Under the pieces are notes generated by a model. The model was not told the DNA's origin. It saw nothing but the letters and a program-made list of their open reading frames with translations, and did no database searches. 64,000 nucleotides of DNA from Tissierellales bacterium. Its GTDB lineage: Bacteria > Bacillota > Clostridia > Tissierellales > Sedimentibacteraceae. Shown one piece after another: positions 16,631-56,994 of this stretch. Made by a program: the position numbers and the translations under genes. The stretch covers positions 62,001 through 126,000 of the forward strand of contig JAHDQO010000003.1 of the NCBI GenBank assembly GCA_018433765.1, read 5' to 3'. Each line of letters begins with the position of its first letter. The first letter of the stretch is position 1.

Positions 16631-16641
16631 TGCAATTGTTT

Positions 16642-16977
16642 GGGGTCAGGCTTGACAAGTTGACAAATTGAGGGGATAATTATCACTATTCTTCTGTTTC
16701 ACATTTATTAAATGGAACGTTATTTACAAAATACAATACTATAATAGCATTGTAAAATTATTTAATTTATATTATAATTTGCATATTGATAATAATATTG
16801 GATAATTACTAAACAAGAAGTATATACAATGTAATAAATAAAAATATTGCAAGTATAAAGAGTCTTTTAGATGATATAATGTAAAACTATAAGTAGTCAT
16901 ATAAAGGAAATATTACTAAAATACGTAAGTGTCACCAAAAAAGTCAAGATTACCAAAGTTCGGGAAATATTAGATAA
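16642..16977 (+). repeat. Dispersed repeat B, copy 1 (opens the accessory region)
   Basis: Starts with GGGGTCAGGCTTGACAAGTT and continues as a long AT-rich non-coding stretch (GTAAAATTATTTAATTTATA, then TATAAAGAGTCTTTTAGATG, then AGATTACCAAAGTTCG). Similar copies or parts occur at 20469-20583, 21388-21610 and 28801-28906. No protein is encoded. The gap 16631-17051 holds nothing else apart from a TCGCTAGCGCG segment near 16988, a relative of the palindromes described below, and the kinase ribosome-binding site. Confidence 0.65.
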
Positions 16978-17597: not shown

Positions 17598-17657
17598 TAT
17601 AATAAGTATACAAAAGATCTAAGGTGGTCCGGTTCAACGACGTTGGGAGTACAAAAC

Positions 17658-17752
17658 GATAAGCAAAATGCCGCTAGCCCGTCATTTTACTTATTGTAGC
17701 GCGGGTACGGGTACCCCGCTGACAGGCTCGGGCTAGCGCTACATTGCCTATC
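17658..17752 (+). repeat. Imperfect palindrome with nested hairpin, next to attC-like site A
   Basis: The left arm GATAAGCAAAATGCCGCTAG... (from 17658) and the right arm ending TACATTGCCTATC (17752) are inverted relatives; their inner 10 bp CGCTAGCCCG (17672-17681) and CGGGCTAGCG (17729-17738) match perfectly. Inside lies a second GC-rich hairpin around GGGTACGGGTACCCC (17700-17717). The same left-arm sequence appears alone at about 16973-16999. The right arm doubles as the left end of attC-like site A. The G+C content is far above the neighbourhood. Confidence 0.6.
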
Positions 17753-17829
17753 AGCGGGTTTGCAAAATTGTCAAGTTAGACAGTAAATTGTCTAGCTCGA
17801 TAATTTCGTAAACCCGCGCGACGTTATAA
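17738..17829 (+). other. attC-like palindromic site A
   Basis: A 29-nt arm (17754-17782) pairs with 17789-17817 around a 6-nt loop. There are five mismatches, all transitions, three of which are G.T wobbles on this strand. Outside the stem, the left end reads GCGCTACATTGC and the right end GCGACGTTATAA, which themselves pair as ACATTGC with GCGACGT. A 6-nt stretch (CTATCA) is unpaired on the left only. This matches the general plan of integron attC sites (inverse core, asymmetric imperfect stem, GTT core at the 3' end). The canonical core is GTTRRRY; here it is GTTATAA, so the match is partial. It follows the kinase gene and precedes the next gene by 77 nt. Confidence 0.45.
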
Positions 17830-17905
17830 GACATAATATGAGCTAAGTATATAAAAAAATATTAATATAAACAATTAAAGCATACTAGGAAGTACAAGTG
17901 GGTGA

Positions 17906-18088
17906 ATGAATATGAAAAAGACCATATCTCCTTTAATAAAGATAGGTTTACTTATAAATACTGCAATTATAATAATAGAGAGATTTGTTACACCAATATC
18001 TAATTGGATAGCTATGCCATTACTTATTGCAGGGATAGTTTTAGTGATCATGGGTGGATTGGAAGACAAAAAAGAAAAACAAAAATAA
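17906..18088 (+). CDS. Small two-helix membrane protein
   Basis: A 60-residue protein with two predicted membrane helices (about residues 10-25 and 35-50) joined by a short loop, and a strongly charged tail EDKKEKQK that should lie in the cytoplasm. No family recognised. The start ATG 17906 is weakly supported (GTGGGTGA upstream); an in-frame ATG lies two codons later. It sits between attC-like sites A and B, as a cassette gene would, and is followed by the first copy of an 84-bp duplicated sequence. Confidence 0.5.
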   Translation: MNMKKTISPLIKIGLLINTAIIIIERFVTPISNWIAMPLLIAGIVLVIMGGLEDKKEKQK

Positions 18089-18114
18089 CATGAAATACTC
18101 AACAGGTAATTAGA

Positions 18115-18198
18115 AGATAGGGGGTCAGACCAGCTAGTAAAAGTCAAGTATTTTTTTAAAAAACTTGGAAATATTTTTTAGTATAGTAATGAACATAG
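18115..18198 (+). repeat. 84-bp direct repeat C, copy 1
   Basis: AGATAGGGGGTCAGACCAGC followed by a T/A-rich stretch and ending AATGAACATAG. A nearly identical copy is at 18813-18895. The GGGGTCAGAC opening resembles repeats associated with REP/RAYT transposases. Copy 1 abuts the left end of attC-like site B. Confidence 0.8.
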
Positions 18199-18299
18199 AG
18201 GGCTAGCGCTACATCGTCTATTAGCAGGTTTACAAAATTATCAAGTTAGACAGCAAACTGACTAACTCGATAACTTCGTAAACTCGCGCGACGTTATAG
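18199..18299 (+). other. attC-like palindromic site B
   Basis: Same plan as site A: left end GGGCTAGCGCTACATCG (18201-18217), arm from 18224, small central loop, right arm to 18287, then GCGACGTTATAG (core at 18293-18299). The 38-nt right end (18262-18299) matches site A at 34 of 38 positions by eye. Two stem positions that are wobbles in site A are Watson-Crick pairs here, so pairing rather than exact sequence appears conserved. The next gene starts 139 nt downstream. Confidence 0.45.
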
Positions 18300-18437
18300 A
18301 AATGATGATGTTGAGGCAGTTCTTTGTGGTCTTGTTTGAAAAAATGTTGAAAAGAGGGATATATATTGAGGAACCGTCTATGTGTATTTGCAGATAAATG
18401 TGAAATAAAGTTGTTTGTAAAATAGGAGGTCGTATAA

Positions 18438-18818
18438 TTGAAATCAATGGATATAAAAAACAAAATCCTGTGGGGAATTAGTATGATTGGACTACTTGGT
18501 ATCTCATATTGGCTAAGCAGATTTTCTTTTTTTGAAATGCATGGTATGAAACAGTGGCCAAACCTATTGGCTATATTAAGTATTACTATAATAGTTATTG
18601 CTACTATATTTGGAAATCGAATAATTCCAGTAGTCACTGTTGTAGGATATATGAGTGGGTTTATTCTTGCTATGATATTTAATACTGATGGTGTAGACCA
18701 AGGTGGAGGGAGAACAAATAATGCTTGGATAATATGGGGAACTGTTTTAATTTTCTCAATTCTGATTGGTATCATTTTAGGTTTTATTTATAAACAGAGA
18801 CATGAAAATGAAAGATAG
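18438..18818 (+). CDS. Four-helix membrane protein, conserved hypothetical
   Basis: 126 residues with four hydrophobic segments (about 10-26, 40-58, 65-82, 97-118) and a conserved-looking loop FNTDGVDQGGGRTNNAWIIWG between helices three and four. I recall similar uncharacterised membrane proteins in Firmicutes but no function. The start is TTG 18438, chosen because AGGAGGT lies 7 nt upstream; the ATG at 18447 would be 16 nt away. Its stop codon lies inside the second copy of repeat C. Confidence 0.75.
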   Translation: MKSMDIKNKILWGISMIGLLGISYWLSRFSFFEMHGMKQWPNLLAILSITIIVIATIFGNRIIPVVTVVGYMSGFILAMIFNTDGVDQGGGRTNNAWIIWGTVLIFSILIGIILGFIYKQRHENER

Positions 18819-18895
18819 GGGGTCAGATCAGCTAGTAAAAGTCAAATTTTTTTAAAAAAACTTGGAAATATTTTTTAGCATAGTAATGAACATAG
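18813..18895 (+). repeat. 84-bp direct repeat C, copy 2
   Basis: Second copy of the repeat at 18115-18198, starting AGATAGGGGGTCAGATCAGC and ending AATGAACATAG, with only a few differences. It overlaps the stop codon of the membrane-protein gene. In copy 1 an attC-like site follows at once; here the IS110 remnant follows instead. Confidence 0.8.
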
Positions 18896-18945
18896 TAAAC
18901 AAACCAATTCAAAACACGAACAATCGGCTATAATATAAATTTGCA

Positions 18946-19383
18946 TTATGCAATTAAATTAAGCTTTTTATTGTAATAATAAACATGTTCTTTTGGAGTA
19001 ATAATTTTGAATTCATTATCTTTACGTAAAACTGCAAAAATTATATTAGTGACTTTCCTCATTAATGCTCCAATAGCAACTTTTTTAGGCTTCAATTCCA
19101 ATTTAGAATTATAATATTCTTTCAAAACATGATTAACTACTTTACCATTTTTACTACATCTAATATTAGCAATAGCAATAACAAATAAGATTCTTCTAGC
19201 TATTCGTGAGCCTCTCTTAGACATTTTAACCTGATTACCAATAAACTTACCTGATTGCTTAACACTTGGGTCTATAATAAAATAAGAAACTAATTGTTTA
19301 GGTTTAGTAAATGCAGAAAAATCACCAATTTCACACATTATTGATACTGTTGATATAAAACCAACACCAGTAATAGAACTACA
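18946..19383 (-). pseudogene. IS110-family transposase remnant (C-terminal domain only)
   Basis: The minus-strand frame reads SITGVGFISTVSIMCEIGDF and then FTKPKQLVSYFIIDPSVKQSGKF, KRGSRIARRILFV and a helical C-terminus. This is the Transposase_20 (PF02371) region of IS110/IS1111 transposases, including the conserved serine-region approach G(V)G and the P-K-QLVSY motif. The N-terminal DEDD catalytic domain is absent: the frame is closed by a stop at 19384-19386 and nothing similar lies beyond, so it is an inactive fragment. IS1111-group elements are known to target attC sites of integrons, which makes its position beside attC-like palindromes noteworthy. Confidence 0.8.
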
Positions 19384-19455
19384 TCAATACCTACACTAAT
19401 AAAATTAAAATAACTAATAAATATCACTCCCATATTTTGCTTAACTATATGGTAC

Positions 19456-19476
19456 TAGGCTTAACAAGTTGACGAA
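19456..19476 (+). repeat. Degenerate GGCTTGACAAGTTGAC element
   Basis: AGGCTTAACAAGTTGACGAAT is a degenerate copy of the element opening repeat B. Others lie at 26274-26296 and 29753-29779, all just after genes. Confidence 0.5.
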
Positions 19477-19587
19477 TATAATAAACAAAATAAAAATATG
19501 TTTATAAATATATAGACATTAAACTGAAAGTTGTGTATAATTAGAAAAGAAAAAATTAGTATGATAAATATTAAAATGAGGTGGGGT

Positions 19588-20451
19588 ATGATTAAAAATT
19601 ATTTAGAATTAAATAAACTTGAAGTAGAGAAATTTATTCAGTTTATAAATAGAAATAAAAAGAATAAATTATCTTTTGAAGACATCGATAATGAATTTAA
19701 GTCTGAAGAATTTGATTTTGGAAGAGGAGTTATTTTTAATATTAAGGGACAAGATATTATTGGTATGGCATCAATAATATTAAAAGAATGTAATAAGAAA
19801 GGAATAGCATATATAATTAAGCTAGATATAAATGAAAGCATTGAGGATAAGTTGACAGCTTTAAGTGAGATAATAGAAGAATCTAAGAATATAGCTAAAA
19901 AATATGGAGCACGGGAAATATTTTTAGGTACAAAAGATGATACAATAATTAAAAATTTGAATACTTTAAATATAGAAAAACAATATTCTGCAGTAAGGAT
20001 GACTTTAGAAAATAGAAGAGTTAAATATTCACCGTTAAGTCTAGTCAAATTATCAGAGGAAAATAAGAAAGAATATTTAACGATTTATAATGATGCTTTT
20101 AAAGAAGTTCCAAATGGAGAAACGTTAATAGAGAGTGAGATTTATGAATATATAAAAAAAACAGATGGAAATAATCATTATATAGCTATAATAAATAATA
20201 AAATGGTAGGTTTTTTGCAGTTTAATATTAAAGATGGAGTGGGTGAATTTGATTTAGGGTTAATTGAGAGTGCTAGAGGAAAGGGATATGGAAAAATAAT
20301 TTTAGAAACGGCTATTAGCTTCTTGAATTCAAAAAAAGTAAAAGAAATAGGTTTAATTGTTATTACAAAAAATACTTTAGCTTATGATATGTATAAGAAA
20401 AGAGGGTTTAAAGAAAGCAAATTAGTTAGTGATTGGTTTAAACTAGATTAA
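19588..20451 (+). CDS. GNAT family N-acetyltransferase
   Basis: 287 residues. The C-terminal half is a GNAT fold with acetyl-CoA-binding motif A ARGKGYGKIILE (Q/R-x-x-G-x-G/A) and motif B ending LAYDMYKKRGFKE. The N-terminal half looks like a second, degenerate GNAT-type domain, as in tandem GNAT proteins. Start chosen at ATG 19588 because GAGGTGGGG immediately precedes it; the frame extends back to 19531 without another ribosome-binding site. Substrate unknown (small amine, antibiotic or protein N-terminus are all possible). It is followed by a partial repeat B and attC-like site C. Confidence 0.8.
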   Translation: MIKNYLELNKLEVEKFIQFINRNKKNKLSFEDIDNEFKSEEFDFGRGVIFNIKGQDIIGMASIILKECNKKGIAYIIKLDINESIEDKLTALSEIIEESKNIAKKYGAREIFLGTKDDTIIKNLNTLNIEKQYSAVRMTLENRRVKYSPLSLVKLSEENKKEYLTIYNDAFKEVPNGETLIESEIYEYIKKTDGNNHYIAIINNKMVGFLQFNIKDGVGEFDLGLIESARGKGYGKIILETAISFLNSKKVKEIGLIVITKNTLAYDMYKKRGFKESKLVSDWFKLD

Positions 20452-20468
20452 GAATAGGAAAATAGTGT

Positions 20469-20583
20469 GTCTGGCTTAACTTAACCCCAAATTTTTATCT
20501 ACTATTGTAATACTATAATAAACATTGTAAAATCATATAAATTATACTATAATTTACATATTAATAATAATATACAATAATCG
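20469..20583 (+). repeat. Dispersed repeat B, partial copy
   Basis: A degenerate CTGGCTTAACTTAACCCC opening, then TACTATAATAAACATTGTAA and TATACTATAATTTACATATT, which align with 16720-16800 of copy 1. The second half of the unit is missing. Confidence 0.55.
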
Positions 20584-20621
20584 CTTAGTGATTTGTAACC
20601 TGAGTTATGACTCTCATTACC

Positions 20622-20717
20622 ATGTACATCGTTTTTACTGGGTACAAGCAGTCAAGCGGTGAAGTCTAGCGTCATATAGCTACCTCAATAATTTCGTAAC
20701 CATGCGTGACGTTAGGC
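20622..20717 (+). other. attC-like site C (canonical 3' end GTTAGGC)
   Basis: The left end is ATGTACATCG (20622-20631; compare CTACATCG in site B). The right 38 nt (20680-20717) align without gaps to site A at 29 of 38 positions by eye and end TGACGTTAGGC. GTTAGGC fits the integron core GTTRRRY exactly, and RRCGTTAGSC is the consensus used to recognise attC 3' ends. The stem is weaker than in A and B. It follows the GNAT gene (stop 20451) and lies 26 nt before the next start codon. Confidence 0.45.
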
Positions 20718-21345: not shown

Positions 21346-21417
21346 ATGAAAATTATAAGAATTATGAAAAGCATGAGGGAAAACTTTGGGGTCAGGCTTG
21401 ACAAGTTGACAAATTGA
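21346..21417 (+). pseudogene. 5' fragment duplicating the start of the lipoprotein gene at 23225
   Basis: A ribosome-binding site (AGGAGCGGAGCGG) and a start reading MKIIRIMKSM, the same as the beginning of the gene at 23225 (MKIIKIMKSM). After about ten codons the frame runs into repeat B and stops at 21417. It is a truncated duplicate, not a gene. Confidence 0.8.
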
Positions 21418-21610
21418 GCGGATAATTATCAATAAGCGTTGTAAAATCATTCAATTTATATTATAATTTGCATATTGATAATAATATTGGAATAACAAAT
21501 AAAAATACTGCAAATATAAAGAGTCCTTTATAGATATAATTTAAAATATTACAAAAAATGTAAGTCGTACCAAAAAAATAAGATTACCAAAGTTCGCAAT
21601 ATATTAATTA
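21388..21610 (+). repeat. Dispersed repeat B, copy 2
   Basis: Opens GGGGTCAGGCTTGACAAGTT and continues with the same AT-rich segments as copy 1 (ATTTGCATATTGATAATAAT, TATAAAGAGTCCTTTA, AGATTACCAAAGTTCG), with internal deletions. Its first 22 bases are an exact inverted match to 23151-23172. Confidence 0.7.
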
Positions 21611-21721
21611 AAGAAAGAATGATATAATTTCTGATTATATATTTAGGGTCAAATTAAACGTATTTTAGATTTATTAAAAAATATTAAGTTAGTAAAGATT
21701 ATATAATGAGAGGTGATGTCA

Positions 21722-22153: not shown

Positions 22154-22493
22154 AACTTAATATGAGGATAATATAAGGTTGGTGAATTTATAAAATTAAA
22201 TCATTAAAAAATAACCAAGAAGCTTATATTATTCCAACTTCTAACAACATATTACATAAGGATCCTAGAGGGAACGTTAAAGGGGCAAGTCAGAACACAT
22301 CACTTCACCGGTGTGACCATTTCCAAGACGGTCTAGTTATACGGATTCGGATGAAAGACCGATGTATTTCAGAGTGTATCTATAAGGTCTAATAAAAAAT
22401 TTATTTAGAGTACTTGAAAATTATATGAAGTTAATTAAAAGTATTTATATTTCGAGACTAATGGATAAATAGAAAGTTGAGGAGGTTAATCAG
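22154..22493 (+). other. Intergenic stretch with a relatively GC-rich core
   Basis: No open frame of note. The part 22255-22370 is clearly richer in G+C than its surroundings and contains CACCGGTG inside a short hairpin (TCAC..CACCGGTGTGA), plus GGGAACGTTAAAGG and TCTAGTTATACGG at its edges. It may be a decayed structured element of the same class as the attC-like sites, but no long pairing could be drawn. Transcription of the next gene probably starts in its AT-rich distal part. Confidence 0.4.
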
Positions 22494-28659: not shown

Positions 28660-28797
28660 ATGAATATTGGAATCATTAGTGACATTCATTGAAATTATAA
28701 CGCTTTGAAGTGCGTACTTAACTATGTGATAAAGGAAATCATTGACTCAGTTATTGTACTTGGTGATATTATTTTTGATATAGATAATACTAGGTTG
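28660..28797 (+). pseudogene. Remnant of a calcineurin-like metallophosphoesterase
   Basis: From ATG 28660 the frame reads MNIGIISDIH, then a TGA stop where the family has Gly, then NYNALKCVL... and VIVLGDIIF. DIHGNxxAL and GD are the metal-binding motifs of YfcE/MJ0936-type phosphodiesterases. The stop replaces the glycine of DIHGN (GGA to TGA is a single change). After about 46 codons the sequence runs into repeat B, so about two thirds of the gene is missing. Confidence 0.82.
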
Positions 28798-28800
28798 AAG

Positions 28801-28906
28801 ACTACAGAAATATTACAAGTATAAAGAGTCTTTTAGATGATATAGTGTAAAAACTATAAGTAATCATATAGGAATTATACCTATATGTAAGTAATACCAA
28901 AAAGAG
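28801..28906 (+). repeat. Dispersed repeat B, partial copy
   Basis: AATATTACAAGTATAAAGAG through GTAAAAACTATAAGTAATCA to TAATACCAAAAAG aligns with 16845-16940 of copy 1. It joins two gene fragments, so it marks a rearrangement junction. Confidence 0.7.
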
Positions 28907-53500: not shown

Positions 53501-55258
53501 TTGGAAAATTTAAAAAGAGTATTTTCTTATGCAAAGGAGCATAAGACTAAAATTACAAAGTCGGTTATTTTCGCAACAATTAGTGTGGTTATGGGAATAA
53601 TTCCATATATTCTTGTACATAGAATTGTTCTTAAATTTATGGAATCAGCATCTGTAACTATTAGCTATATAGGTATAATATCTTTAGGTATTGTAATTTG
53701 CCTAAGTGCAAAGGGATTACTTTTTGCTAAAGCAACAACTTATTCTCATGAAAGTGCTTATGATATTTTAATGGGAATGAGAAACAAATTAGCTGAGAAA
53801 ATGATAAAAATGCCTATGGGAGAAATACATAAAAACACAACCGGTAAATTTAAAAATATTTTTGTAGATGATATAGAATCAATGGAGATTATACTTGCTC
53901 ATATGATTCCAGAGATAATATCTAATTTATTAGCACCCTCTTTAATTATTGTGTACATTTTAATATTAGATTGGAGAATGGCAATTTTATCATTAGCTAC
54001 AATTCCTATAGGTTATTTTTTCTATGCTTTAATGATGAAAGACCATAAAATAAAAGTAAAAAAATTCTTTAATGCAACTGATGAAATGAATGGAACAATT
54101 GTTGAATATATAAATGGAATGGAAGTTATAAAGACTTTTAATCAAACAACATCATCTTTTGCTAAATATACAAATTCAGTTAATAATTATAAAGATTTTG
54201 CATTAGAATGGTACAAATATTCATGGCCTTATATGACAGCATATGCAGTAATACTGCCTTGTACTTTGGCGTTTGTTCTTCCCTTTGGAGCATTATTTTA
54301 TTTTAGAGGAACACTTTCATTAAGTACTTATTTTTTATGTATTTTATTATCATTGGGATTAACTACTCCAATAATCAAATTATCTGAGCATGTTGACAAC
54401 TTAGGAATTATTAGTGAAAAAGAGAAAAAGATAAATAAAATTCTACAATCTAAGGAATTGAAAGAGACATCAGAGGAAACAACTCTAGAAAATTATGATT
54501 TAACATTAAAAAATGTCTCATTTGCTTATGATACAAAGGATGTATTAAGTAATATTTCATTTACAGCAAAAGAAAATACAATAACTGCATTAGTTGGAAG
54601 ATCAGGTTCTGGTAAATCAACCATAGCAAAATTGATAACTAGATTTTGGGATGTAGATAGTGGAGAAATTATGATAGGTAGTGTGAATATTAAGGATTTA
54701 ACTTTTGAGAAACTTATGAATAGTATTAGCTATGTATCTCAAGATGTATATCTCTTTAATATGTCTATTAAAGAAAATATTCGAATAGGAAACCCTAATG
54801 CAAGTGATGAGGATGTGATAAGAGTATCTAAACTTGCACAATGCCATGATTTTATTATGGATACTGAAAAAGGATATGATACAAATGCAGGTGATGCAGG
54901 TAACAAACTTAGTGGAGGACAGAAACAGCGTATATCAATAGCAAGAGCTTTGTTAAAGGATGCACCTATAGTTATACTAGATGAAGCTACAGCATTTACA
55001 GATCCTGAAAACGAGGATAAGCTTCAAGAATCAATCAATAATTTGGTTAGTAATAAAACCTTAATAATGGTTGCACATAGATTATCAACAATTATTAATG
55101 CTGATAATATAATTCTTGTCGATAAAGGCAGAATATCAGCTCAGGGAACTCATAATGAACTTCTTTCTAACTCTGAAATTTATTCAAATATGTGGAAAGC
55201 ACATATAGGTGCTGTGGAATGGAACATGTCAGTGAAAGGAGAGAATGTATCATGTTAA
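53501..55258 (+). CDS. ABC exporter-fold half transporter, YbtP/IrtA-like
   Basis: 585 residues: six membrane helices (about 15-300) and a nucleotide-binding domain with Walker A GRSGSGKST (about 365), Q-loop YVSQDVYLF, signature LSGGQKQR, Walker B IVILDEAT and H-loop VAHR. It forms a pair with the next gene, overlapping by 7 nt. In YbtPQ and IrtAB such exporter-fold heterodimers import ferric siderophores or metallophores. The divergent AraC regulator and Fur site support that role here. Start TTG 53501 with GAGAGGAG upstream. Confidence 0.85.
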   Translation: MENLKRVFSYAKEHKTKITKSVIFATISVVMGIIPYILVHRIVLKFMESASVTISYIGIISLGIVICLSAKGLLFAKATTYSHESAYDILMGMRNKLAEKMIKMPMGEIHKNTTGKFKNIFVDDIESMEIILAHMIPEIISNLLAPSLIIVYILILDWRMAILSLATIPIGYFFYALMMKDHKIKVKKFFNATDEMNGTIVEYINGMEVIKTFNQTTSSFAKYTNSVNNYKDFALEWYKYSWPYMTAYAVILPCTLAFVLPFGALFYFRGTLSLSTYFLCILLSLGLTTPIIKLSEHVDNLGIISEKEKKINKILQSKELKETSEETTLENYDLTLKNVSFAYDTKDVLSNISFTAKENTITALVGRSGSGKSTIAKLITRFWDVDSGEIMIGSVNIKDLTFEKLMNSISYVSQDVYLFNMSIKENIRIGNPNASDEDVIRVSKLAQCHDFIMDTEKGYDTNAGDAGNKLSGGQKQRISIARALLKDAPIVILDEATAFTDPENEDKLQESINNLVSNKTLIMVAHRLSTIINADNIILVDKGRISAQGTHNELLSNSEIYSNMWKAHIGAVEWNMSVKGENVSC

Positions 55259-56994
55259 ATATTATAAAGAGAGTTTTAAATATTTCTGGTGAACAATCAA
55301 AAAAAATAAAAATAGCTTTTGTGTTTAGTTTTTTCGAGAGCGTGTTTGCTAATTTCTCTATACTAGCAGTTTTTTATATTATGTTCAGAATAATACATTC
55401 ATCTAGTTATGAAAAAATTAACATTAATGATATATGGATGAGTGGATTGATTATTGTTATAGGACTCATAGGTCAATATATTTTTAAATTACTCATATAT
55501 CATTTTCAAAGTGCATCTGGTTATGAAGTATTTAACCGTGAAAGGATTAAGTTAGGCAATCATTTGAAGCGTTTACCTATGGGTTTTTTTAATGAGGGAA
55601 ATATAGGTGACATATCAGCGATAATAACATCAGATTTATCTTTCGTTGAAATGTATTCAATGGATAACCTCGACAAAGTTATAAATGCATTTGTAGGTAT
55701 AGTTATAGGTTGTATATTACTTTTGATACTTGATTGGAGAATTGCTATTATTGCAACTAGTGTGACAATACCTGTCGCATTTGTTTTAAATAAGATGCAG
55801 AAAACAGGTAAAGTATATTCACAAAAAAGGCAAGATACACAAGCTAATTTAATAACTGCAGTATTAGAATATGCTCAAGGAATGTCAGTTATTAAAGCAT
55901 TTAATATGACAGGTGAAAAATCAAAGAAGACAAAAGAAAGATTCAAAGAAACTAGAGATAGATATATAGAATTTGAGAAAAAATTTATATATCCAAATAC
56001 ATTATGCGATATATATTTTTCTGTAGGTATTGGATTGATTATCTTTTTTTCTTCATATTTTTATATTCACGGAAGTTTATCACTACCTACTCTATTATTT
56101 TTCCTAATTTTTATTTTTAAACTGTATATACCATTGCAGGCAATTGGTGTATTAACAGGATTTATTAGAATTATGGATGCATCTCTTGATAGATTTGAAA
56201 GAGTTCAAAATTTAGAAGTGATTGATGAAAACGGTAAAGATATAAATCTTACAGAATTTGATATAGAGTTTAAGAATGTATCATTTGCATATGAAGATAG
56301 AAATGTCTTAGAAAATATTAGTTTTAAAGTTCCAGAAAACAGCATGACAGCGTTAGTAGGGGCTTCAGGTTGTGGTAAAACTACTATTGCTAATTTAATT
56401 GCGAGGTTTTGGGATGTTCAAAAAGGACAAGTTTTAGTTGGCGGAGTAGATATTAAAAATATGACATGTGACAGCTTACTTAAGAATATCAGTATGGTAT
56501 TTCAAAAGGTTTATTTATTTAACGATACTATACTAAATAATATTAAGTTTGGTAAGTCAGATGCTACTTATGAAGAAGTAGTAGAAGCAGCTAAAAAAGC
56601 AAGGTGTCATGAATTTATCATGGAACTTGAAGAAGGATATGATACGGTAGTTGGAGAAGGAGGAGCTACACTATCAGGTGGAGAAAAGCAGAGAATATCT
56701 ATTGCAAGAGCTATATTAAAAGATGCACCTATAGTGCTTTTAGATGAAGCAACAGCAAGTATTGACCCAGATAATGAAAGACATATACAAATGGCAATAG
56801 ATGAACTTTTAAGAGATAAAACACTTGTGGTTATAGCACATAGATTGTCTACTATACAAAGTGCTGATCAAATACTTGTTATTAATGATGGCAAACTAAT
56901 TCAAAAAGGAACTCATAATGAACTTATACAAGAAGAAGGTCAATACAAAGATTATTGGCAAAGAAGAATGAAAATAAGAAGTTGGACAATTTAA
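55252..56994 (+). CDS. ABC exporter-fold half transporter, YbtQ/IrtB-like
   Basis: 580 residues: membrane domain (about 15-300), then Walker A GASGCGKTT (about 370), Q-loop MVFQKVYLF, signature LSGGEKQR, Walker B IVLLDEAT and IAHR. Its ATG overlaps the stop of the partner gene (translational coupling), and AAAGGAGAG lies about 9 nt upstream; the frame extends back to 55192 inside the partner gene but that is not used. Expected to form a heterodimer that moves an iron chelate inward. A decayed copy of this gene's 3' end lies at about 61158-61330. Confidence 0.87.
   Translation: MLNIIKRVLNISGEQSKKIKIAFVFSFFESVFANFSILAVFYIMFRIIHSSSYEKININDIWMSGLIIVIGLIGQYIFKLLIYHFQSASGYEVFNRERIKLGNHLKRLPMGFFNEGNIGDISAIITSDLSFVEMYSMDNLDKVINAFVGIVIGCILLLILDWRIAIIATSVTIPVAFVLNKMQKTGKVYSQKRQDTQANLITAVLEYAQGMSVIKAFNMTGEKSKKTKERFKETRDRYIEFEKKFIYPNTLCDIYFSVGIGLIIFFSSYFYIHGSLSLPTLLFFLIFIFKLYIPLQAIGVLTGFIRIMDASLDRFERVQNLEVIDENGKDINLTEFDIEFKNVSFAYEDRNVLENISFKVPENSMTALVGASGCGKTTIANLIARFWDVQKGQVLVGGVDIKNMTCDSLLKNISMVFQKVYLFNDTILNNIKFGKSDATYEEVVEAAKKARCHEFIMELEEGYDTVVGEGGATLSGGEKQRISIARAILKDAPIVLLDEATASIDPDNERHIQMAIDELLRDKTLVVIAHRLSTIQSADQILVINDGKLIQKGTHNELIQEEGQYKDYWQRRMKIRSWTI

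Follow-up and report, generated by a model that had tools for sequence, protein, structure and literature searches.

A decayed cassette array in a Tissierellales genome and its probable relation to integron-like systems whose integrase lacks the IntI additional domain

Introduction

We analysed a 64,000-nucleotide stretch of a Tissierellales bacterium genome (GenBank assembly GCA_018433765.1, contig JAHDQO010000003.1, positions 62,001 to 126,000), hereafter the window, in which an initial annotation had described three attC-like palindromes between small genes. A region of ~4.8 kb in this window holds one clear attC, one half attC and three copies of a gene-free element, and very probably represents what decay has left of a chromosomal integron-like cassette array. 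Arrays of this kind in intact relatives are headed by a tyrosine recombinase that does not carry the additional (I2) domain of the integron integrase IntI, and we call both the enzyme and its system "patchless". That the patchless system works like an integron is well supported; it departs from canonical IntI integrons in two defining features, having neither I2 in the integrase nor the extrahelical base in attC. The arrays, their orientation, the junctions, the co-occurrence of recombinase and attC, and the absence of I2 and of a bulge in the L stem are read directly from sequence. From the position of the integrase, its association with attC and the cassette junctions, we infer that cassettes are recombined by an integrase without I2, which would act on single-stranded bottom-strand attC.

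Results

Large cassette arrays were found in the genome of another genus, a single 3.13 Mb contig (G026). A first attC profile, built from 13 of its sites, gave 120 hits in the 363 kb of sequence fetched from this genome and 10 more at locus L060. The 120 hits correspond to 109 sites, of which 11 are interrupted by 1.89–2.24 kb at one shared attC position. Orientation is uniform within each array, with 30 hits on the plus strand (17–56 kb), and 33 (849–891 kb) and 57 (1538–1627 kb) on the minus strand; both minus-strand arrays begin directly behind intact integrase genes. Sites are spaced by a median of 1035 bp and are 150 nt long (121–208) among 90 full-length hits from G026 and L060, and they carry the R'', L'', L' and R' boxes and the GTT core of integron attC. 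We built a covariance model, R1, from 36 sites (30 from G026, 6 from L060), which is nearly a sequence model because RNAalifold on the attC gave only seven pairs.

Two group II introns (Rfam RF02005/RF00029) lie at L039 11397–13255 and 17363–19223. Both interrupt an attC at one and the same position, and one of them encodes an RVT_1 protein; nine further sites of G026 are interrupted there too. Integrons are known to host attC-targeting group II introns, and the L039 case resembles these. Short attC-like sites of ~60–70 nt, nearer in size to canonical attC, stand beside long ones at L061 (8436–8494 and 13681–13739) and L060 (16652–16716).

In integrons, a cassette starts with bases complementary to its own terminal R'' box. 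Across 91 pairs (84 from G026, 7 from L060), all four variable positions of the start matched the cassette's own R'' in 62, compared with 7.7% after shuffling, and at least three of the four did so in 81, while a complete match between R'' and the start of the next cassette was seen in only 9 of 91. Five pairs scored 0–1, and in four of these the preceding site runs on into GATAAGC (three, all the element described below) or GATAAGA (one). Another placement of the R'' box, later corrected, gave 42 of 86, likewise above its shuffles. At nine further loci in the order, complete matches were less frequent (12 of 37, against 5.4% shuffled), partly because box positions there come from a less fitting model.

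The junctions were located by comparing sites. Fifteen pairs, not all independent and three of them element copies, share their downstream sequence, and identity stops between C and GTT in 11 and 2–5 nt further left in 4; another 39 pairs (25 of them printed) share the attC and differ downstream. Start/R'' complementarity together with these junction swaps suggests that the cassettes are mobile circular units. The bottom strand folds to a lower energy than the top strand in 78 of 91 attC.

An extrahelical-base bulge in the left arm of the L''/L' stem was found in none of the 91 attC, whereas the same routine detected it in all six Vibrio repeats (VCR) and in the one class 1 attC (cmlA5) used as controls. 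The VCR controls were located by the stem routine with a lower limit and bulges allowed; a stricter search found none in the Vibrio array. L stems have at least seven uninterrupted pairs in 46 of 91 sites, and the left and right spacers measure 4 and 7 nt in 57. These values replace an earlier classification with poor registers (31 of 91 with at least seven uninterrupted pairs, left bulge in 2 of 91). I2 has been tied to the recognition of extrahelical bases in published work, and PMC2727003 calls the first extrahelical base in attC absolutely conserved. Co-evolution predicts that reader and sign should be absent together, and indeed both I2 and the extrahelical base are lacking.

Two of the G026 arrays are immediately preceded by an intact recombinase, one at 892 kb (open frame of 315 residues) and one at 1628 kb (349 residues); a third recombinase in this genome is broken. 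The best curated model for the recombinase is the XerA-type NF040815 (cut-off 220), at 239.6 bits for protein P0001 and 231.2 bits for L060. The IntI model TIGR02249 gives 214 bits in two stretches (cut-off 265), skipping model positions 181–233; three canonical IntI controls score 447–523 bits in one stretch. None of 391 sampled genomes of the class, and none of 24 attC-bearing genomes, reached this IntI cut-off. The distance between the KGxKxR and LRH motifs is 67–73 residues in 33 of 37 relatives (four not measurable; a second recombinase in L062, with 77 residues, was set aside), compared with 102–110 residues in 43 of the 44 canonical IntI measurable among 82 rows, the other being L244 with 79. 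By length and alignment, the recombinase thus lacks the ~40-residue IntI additional domain. An AlphaFold model of the L060 integrase, from five sequences, had a mean pLDDT of 53 and was not used.

In a tree of 84 proteins, from which poorly filled columns, I2 among them, had been dropped, canonical IntI form one clade (100/100) and the patchless proteins with five Bacteroidota proteins another (100/97), the two together excluding the small outgroup of six Xer proteins (100/93); the clostridial patchless proteins group on their own with weak support (75/50). An IS91-type transposase lies behind or near the patchless recombinases at L134, L137, L186, L193, L195 and L043, as judged by Pfam for L137 and L195 and by eye for the others.

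As in integrons, an attI-like site adjoins the integrase: an inverted repeat followed by GTTA stands after the stop codon at 16 of 28 integron-type loci and at none of six IS91-type loci, a count that is descriptive only, because the regular expression was written after viewing the sequences and some loci are near-copies. At loci with an attC behind the core, the start of cassette 1 matches the R'' of its attC at four of four positions in 10 of 13 comparisons and at three in the remaining 3, and these comparisons had no role in finding the attI cores.

Within the order, 24 of 249 genomes carry R1 attC, as do 29 of 391 sampled from the class (about 7%), and these attC are strongly associated with the recombinase. 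In the class, attC were found in 17 of 26 genomes with a recombinase, IS91-type ones included, and in 12 of 365 without (p 5e-16); in the order, the counts are 8 of 9 and 16 of 240 (p 2e-8). Beside 38 recombinase genes, a strict attC motif in the expected layout had 29 matches within 200 kb of downstream sequence (15 of 38 loci), none when mirrored and 0.6 in shuffles, and two upstream in 252 kb, both at L061. An early de novo stem search had no spacer rule and matched both strands, and has since been tightened. No strict motif was present 0.1–10 kb downstream at the Bacteroidota loci L063–L068, and a search of viral contigs with the integrase gave no match. Repeats do stand behind related recombinases of Maribacter orientalis and Carboxylicivirga (L065 11375–11564 and 12962–13155; L068 11643–11775 and 18386–18518), and these may be sites of a similar system. 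Among the titles and abstracts retrieved by searches of open PubMed Central papers, none described integrons whose integrase lacks the additional domain, and none described large arrays in Clostridia.

In the window's genome, R1 detects five sites, namely window 22238–22367, one on contig C11 and three on contig C13, where the DNA profile finds four. The clear attC in the window had been overlooked in the initial annotation, which proposed the covariance-model search that we ran with an attC model of our own. A search for an integrase, likewise suggested there, gave no match to the IntI model on the window's contig, a broken copy on C13 and intact ones in relatives. C13 reads, in order, an integrase piece with stops and frameshifts, degenerate attI-like repeats, a first cassette that begins TTAGACG and ends with R'' CGTCTAAC, and attC. 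Broken integrase and remaining attC indicate that the window shows scattered, decaying cassettes (Table 1). The attC at 22238–22341 was also recovered by nhmmer (E 6e-20); at 17598–17661, R1 scores only 12.1 bits (E 0.17), and the letters at 17604–17657 are similar to attC ends that precede element copies in G026. An Rfam search of the window gave no match.

Table 1 Features of the cassette-like region (window positions)
Feature	Positions	Strand	Evidence
Right half (L' side) of an attC, left half lost, abutting the element	17604–17657	+	nhmmer 17618–17655, E 0.001
Full copy of the gene-free element, GATAAGC...GCGCGAC	17658–17822	+	89% identity to a G026 copy
Cassette-junction core GTTATAAG (site 1)	17823–17830	+	sequence; junction placed by analogy with G026
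Second element copy, 3' part (site 2)	18200–18292	+	92% identity to element positions 67–163
Core GTTATAG behind site 2	18293–18299	+	sequence
126-residue open reading frame, possible cassette gene	18438–18818	+	no Pfam family at E 0.01
IS110/IS116 transposase remnant	18946–19338	-	Pfam PF02371, E 1.9e-13
GNAT acetyltransferase reading frame, 306 residues, possible cassette gene	19531–20451	+	Pfam PF00583, E 6.1e-15
Diverged element copy, 3' part (site 3)	20620–20710	+	alignment score 44, best of 200 shuffles 30
Core GTTAGGC behind site 3	20711–20717	+	sequence
196-residue open reading frame, similar gene on contig C5	20743–21333	+	no Pfam family at E 0.01
Decayed attC, R'' CTTCTAAC, degenerate right end	22238–22367	+	R1 75.8 bits, E 5.3e-18

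The three annotated right ends are present as described, GACGTTATAA (17820–17829), GACGTTATAG (18290–18299) and GACGTTAGGC (20708–20717), and all three sites contain TACATYG. Their shared pattern, TTCGTAA-N4-8-GCGnGACGTTA, has three matches in the 4.19 Mb genome, all in the window, and none for the reversed control, which speaks against an ordinary family of miniature inverted-repeat elements (MITE) or repetitive palindromes (REP) scattered elsewhere. The description as long palindromes holds for sites 1 and 2, which are 88% alike over 99 bp (bottom-strand DNA fold, z -3.6 and -5.0), and fails for site 3, where the fold is no better than shuffles (z +1.1). All three derive from one gene-free element, of which sites 1 and 2 are copies and site 3 a diverged copy; the true attC belong to a different family of ~147 nt, represented at window 22238–22367 and on C11 and C13. 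The annotators were right to see an integrase-less cassette region related to integrons, and to suspect a system different from the canonical one; in detail, the palindromes at sites 1 and 2 are not the usual attC of this system. One-strand genes of cassette type are roughly what the region contains (AAA_33, GNAT and small unknowns), the exception being a minus-strand IS110/IS116 remnant between sites 2 and 3, with 71% DNA identity over 363 bp (window 19016–19378) to an IS110 element within a G026 array.

Among 27 genomes of the family searched with the right-end pattern, six further copies of the element were found, all in G026, where it is 159 bp long (159–165 bp overall) and gene-free. Each of the six sits precisely at the junction where an attC ends and the following cassette begins, and is followed by GTTA in five cases and GATA in one. 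The same G026 cassette occurs with the element ahead of it (~39.2 kb) and without it (~1614.5 kb), at 96.8% identity over 1087 aligned positions; over 175 bp, the preceding attC share 90% identity, and the element accounts for the whole difference between the two junctions. These are not one locus before and after insertion, because genes further upstream differ. The element contains GTTTATC-GTCGCGCG, which matches the complement of the element's circle junction, CGCGCGAC-GATAAGC, at 14 of 15 positions; it thus resembles a gene-less cassette with an AT core replacing TT. Of 249 genomes in the order, 2 were found to contain it. Exact matches to its right-end pattern were also seen in two IMG/VR contigs, L279 (461–482) and L280 (5144–5165).

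The cassette-like region of the window contains other repeats that are not attC, 50–227 bp long and 67–96% alike, at 16639–16688 and 21385–21434, and at 16735–16806, 20509–20581, 21431–21487 and 28766–28903. Leaders at 21613–21705 and 22352–22451 are 75–80% alike over ~95–100 bp to one behind a G026 cassette junction (L039 7565–7664), perhaps as shared cassette promoters. Elsewhere in the window, the neighbours 54491–55162 and 56255–56925 are 66% alike over 680 bp, a diverged duplication.

Discussion

Our analysis suggests how such a system might operate. Intact relatives combine a tyrosine recombinase without I2, an attI made of inverted repeats shortly past the integrase stop codon and ending in GTTA, and a uniformly oriented array of cassettes. 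Every cassette closes with an attC, usually ~150 nt long, that carries R'' (nnnnTAAC), L'', L' and R' (GTTAnnnn). A cassette would be excised at GTT and circularise, so that its start pairs with its own R'' box; the predicted junction of circular cassettes is nnnnGTTAnnnn. The circle could then be re-inserted at attI or at an attC. What the integrase reads on the folded bottom strand is probably the unpaired spacer, which is asymmetric (4 nt on the left and 7 on the right), rather than an extrahelical base, and the gene-free element at cassette junctions was probably moved by the same enzyme. In the window's genome, the integrase has decayed on C13, and attC are left on three contigs.

Several observations weigh against this interpretation. 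The window has a single clear attC, none of its cassettes passes the start/R'' test, and the attI-like core on C13 is ATTA, not GTTA. L stems are shorter than 7 bp in 45 of 91 sites, and in 38 of these the helix merely ends (3–6 pairs), which makes the absence of a bulge less telling there. R1 was drawn from one genome plus L060. At the thresholds used, no recombinase was detected in 12 genomes of the class sample and 16 of the order sample that carry attC; 9 of the 26 recombinase-bearing genomes of the class, plus G044 of the order, show no R1 attC. A downstream strict motif is missing at 23 of 38 recombinase loci, many of which have little sequence there, and the integron-type loci L128, L189, L190 and L192 have 4.9–10.8 kb without one; R1 sites nevertheless lie beside the L190 and L192 genes. 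Finally, a related subclade of seven members (two Pfam-checked) accompanies IS91 transposases and represents no integron.

Could the region instead be the remnant of a canonical integron, with ordinary attC moved by a canonical IntI located elsewhere or since lost, and the patchless recombinase a bystander? Site 3 ends in a textbook core, the attC carry R and L boxes as integrons do, and, according to PMC9024848, one complete integron and a few CALIN are known from Firmicutes. Yet no sampled genome reached the IntI cut-off that the controls far exceed, the patchless gene itself heads the arrays with an attI core matching cassette 1, and the extrahelical-base bulge is absent throughout, so that we regard this explanation as very unlikely. 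Movement of the cassettes by the host XerC/XerD or a different recombinase, in the manner of integrative mobile elements exploiting Xer recombination (IMEX), would agree with the better fit of the patchless integrase to the XerA model and with attC-bearing genomes that have no patchless recombinase. This is highly improbable in view of a recombinase clade that stands apart from the six Xer proteins as sister to IntI, with the I2 columns dropped, and of genes that are strongly associated with attC and adjoin attI-like sites.

An ordinary repeat family, with REP- or MITE-like palindromes lying between genes by chance, appears extremely unlikely to us. The element is gene-free and palindromic and its distribution in the order is narrow, as such a family might have it; its exact placement at all six G026 junctions, the lack of any further pattern match in the window's genome, the uniform attC orientation within arrays and the cassette-specific start/R'' complementarity are all at odds with chance. 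A decayed patchless cassette array is the reading that we retain.

We lean towards a second integron lineage in Clostridia, perhaps also in Bacteroidota, whose integrase never had or has lost I2 and whose attC correspondingly have no extrahelical bases. Since the clade is sister to IntI in our tree, it could be a living relic of a stage before I2 or an independent route to folded-cassette capture. If true, such a lineage would contradict the rule that cassettes cannot be captured without I2, and the system may show how integrons worked before, or without, this domain. A natural system of about a hundred cassettes in one genome, with neither I2 nor the extrahelical base, would open the question to testing. 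Surveys that demand the IntI domain could miss patchless attC, as in the 29 of 391 class species reported here.

The patchless system shares with chromosomal integrons and superintegrons an integrase at the array head, an attI-like site, a one-way array, attC of the R''-L''-L'-R' type, a GTT junction, a cassette start complementary to its own R'' and group II introns inside attC. It is unlike them in its integrase without I2, in the L stem of its attC without an extrahelical-base bulge, in an attI of GAAC..GTTC-type inverted repeats, and in having integrase and cassettes on the same strand; a simple LexA-like box was seen upstream of 2 of 37 recombinase genes. CALIN, the IntegronFinder term for cassette arrays lacking an integrase, are recognised as several attC within 4 kb with no integrase nearby. 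The window resembles them in its attC-type sites with no integrase nearby, but its attC family belongs to the patchless system, with a broken integrase on another contig. Like XerA, XerC and XerD, patchless proteins align without I2, and their KGxKxR–LRH distance is of the same order (73 residues in one Xer-type control); in contrast to these, they form a separate clade next to IntI and head cassette arrays. The tyrosine recombinase found adjacent to IS91-family elements falls in the same large clade, whereas these loci differ in having an attI-like core in none of six cases and a strict attC motif in one of the five with more than 1.5 kb downstream.

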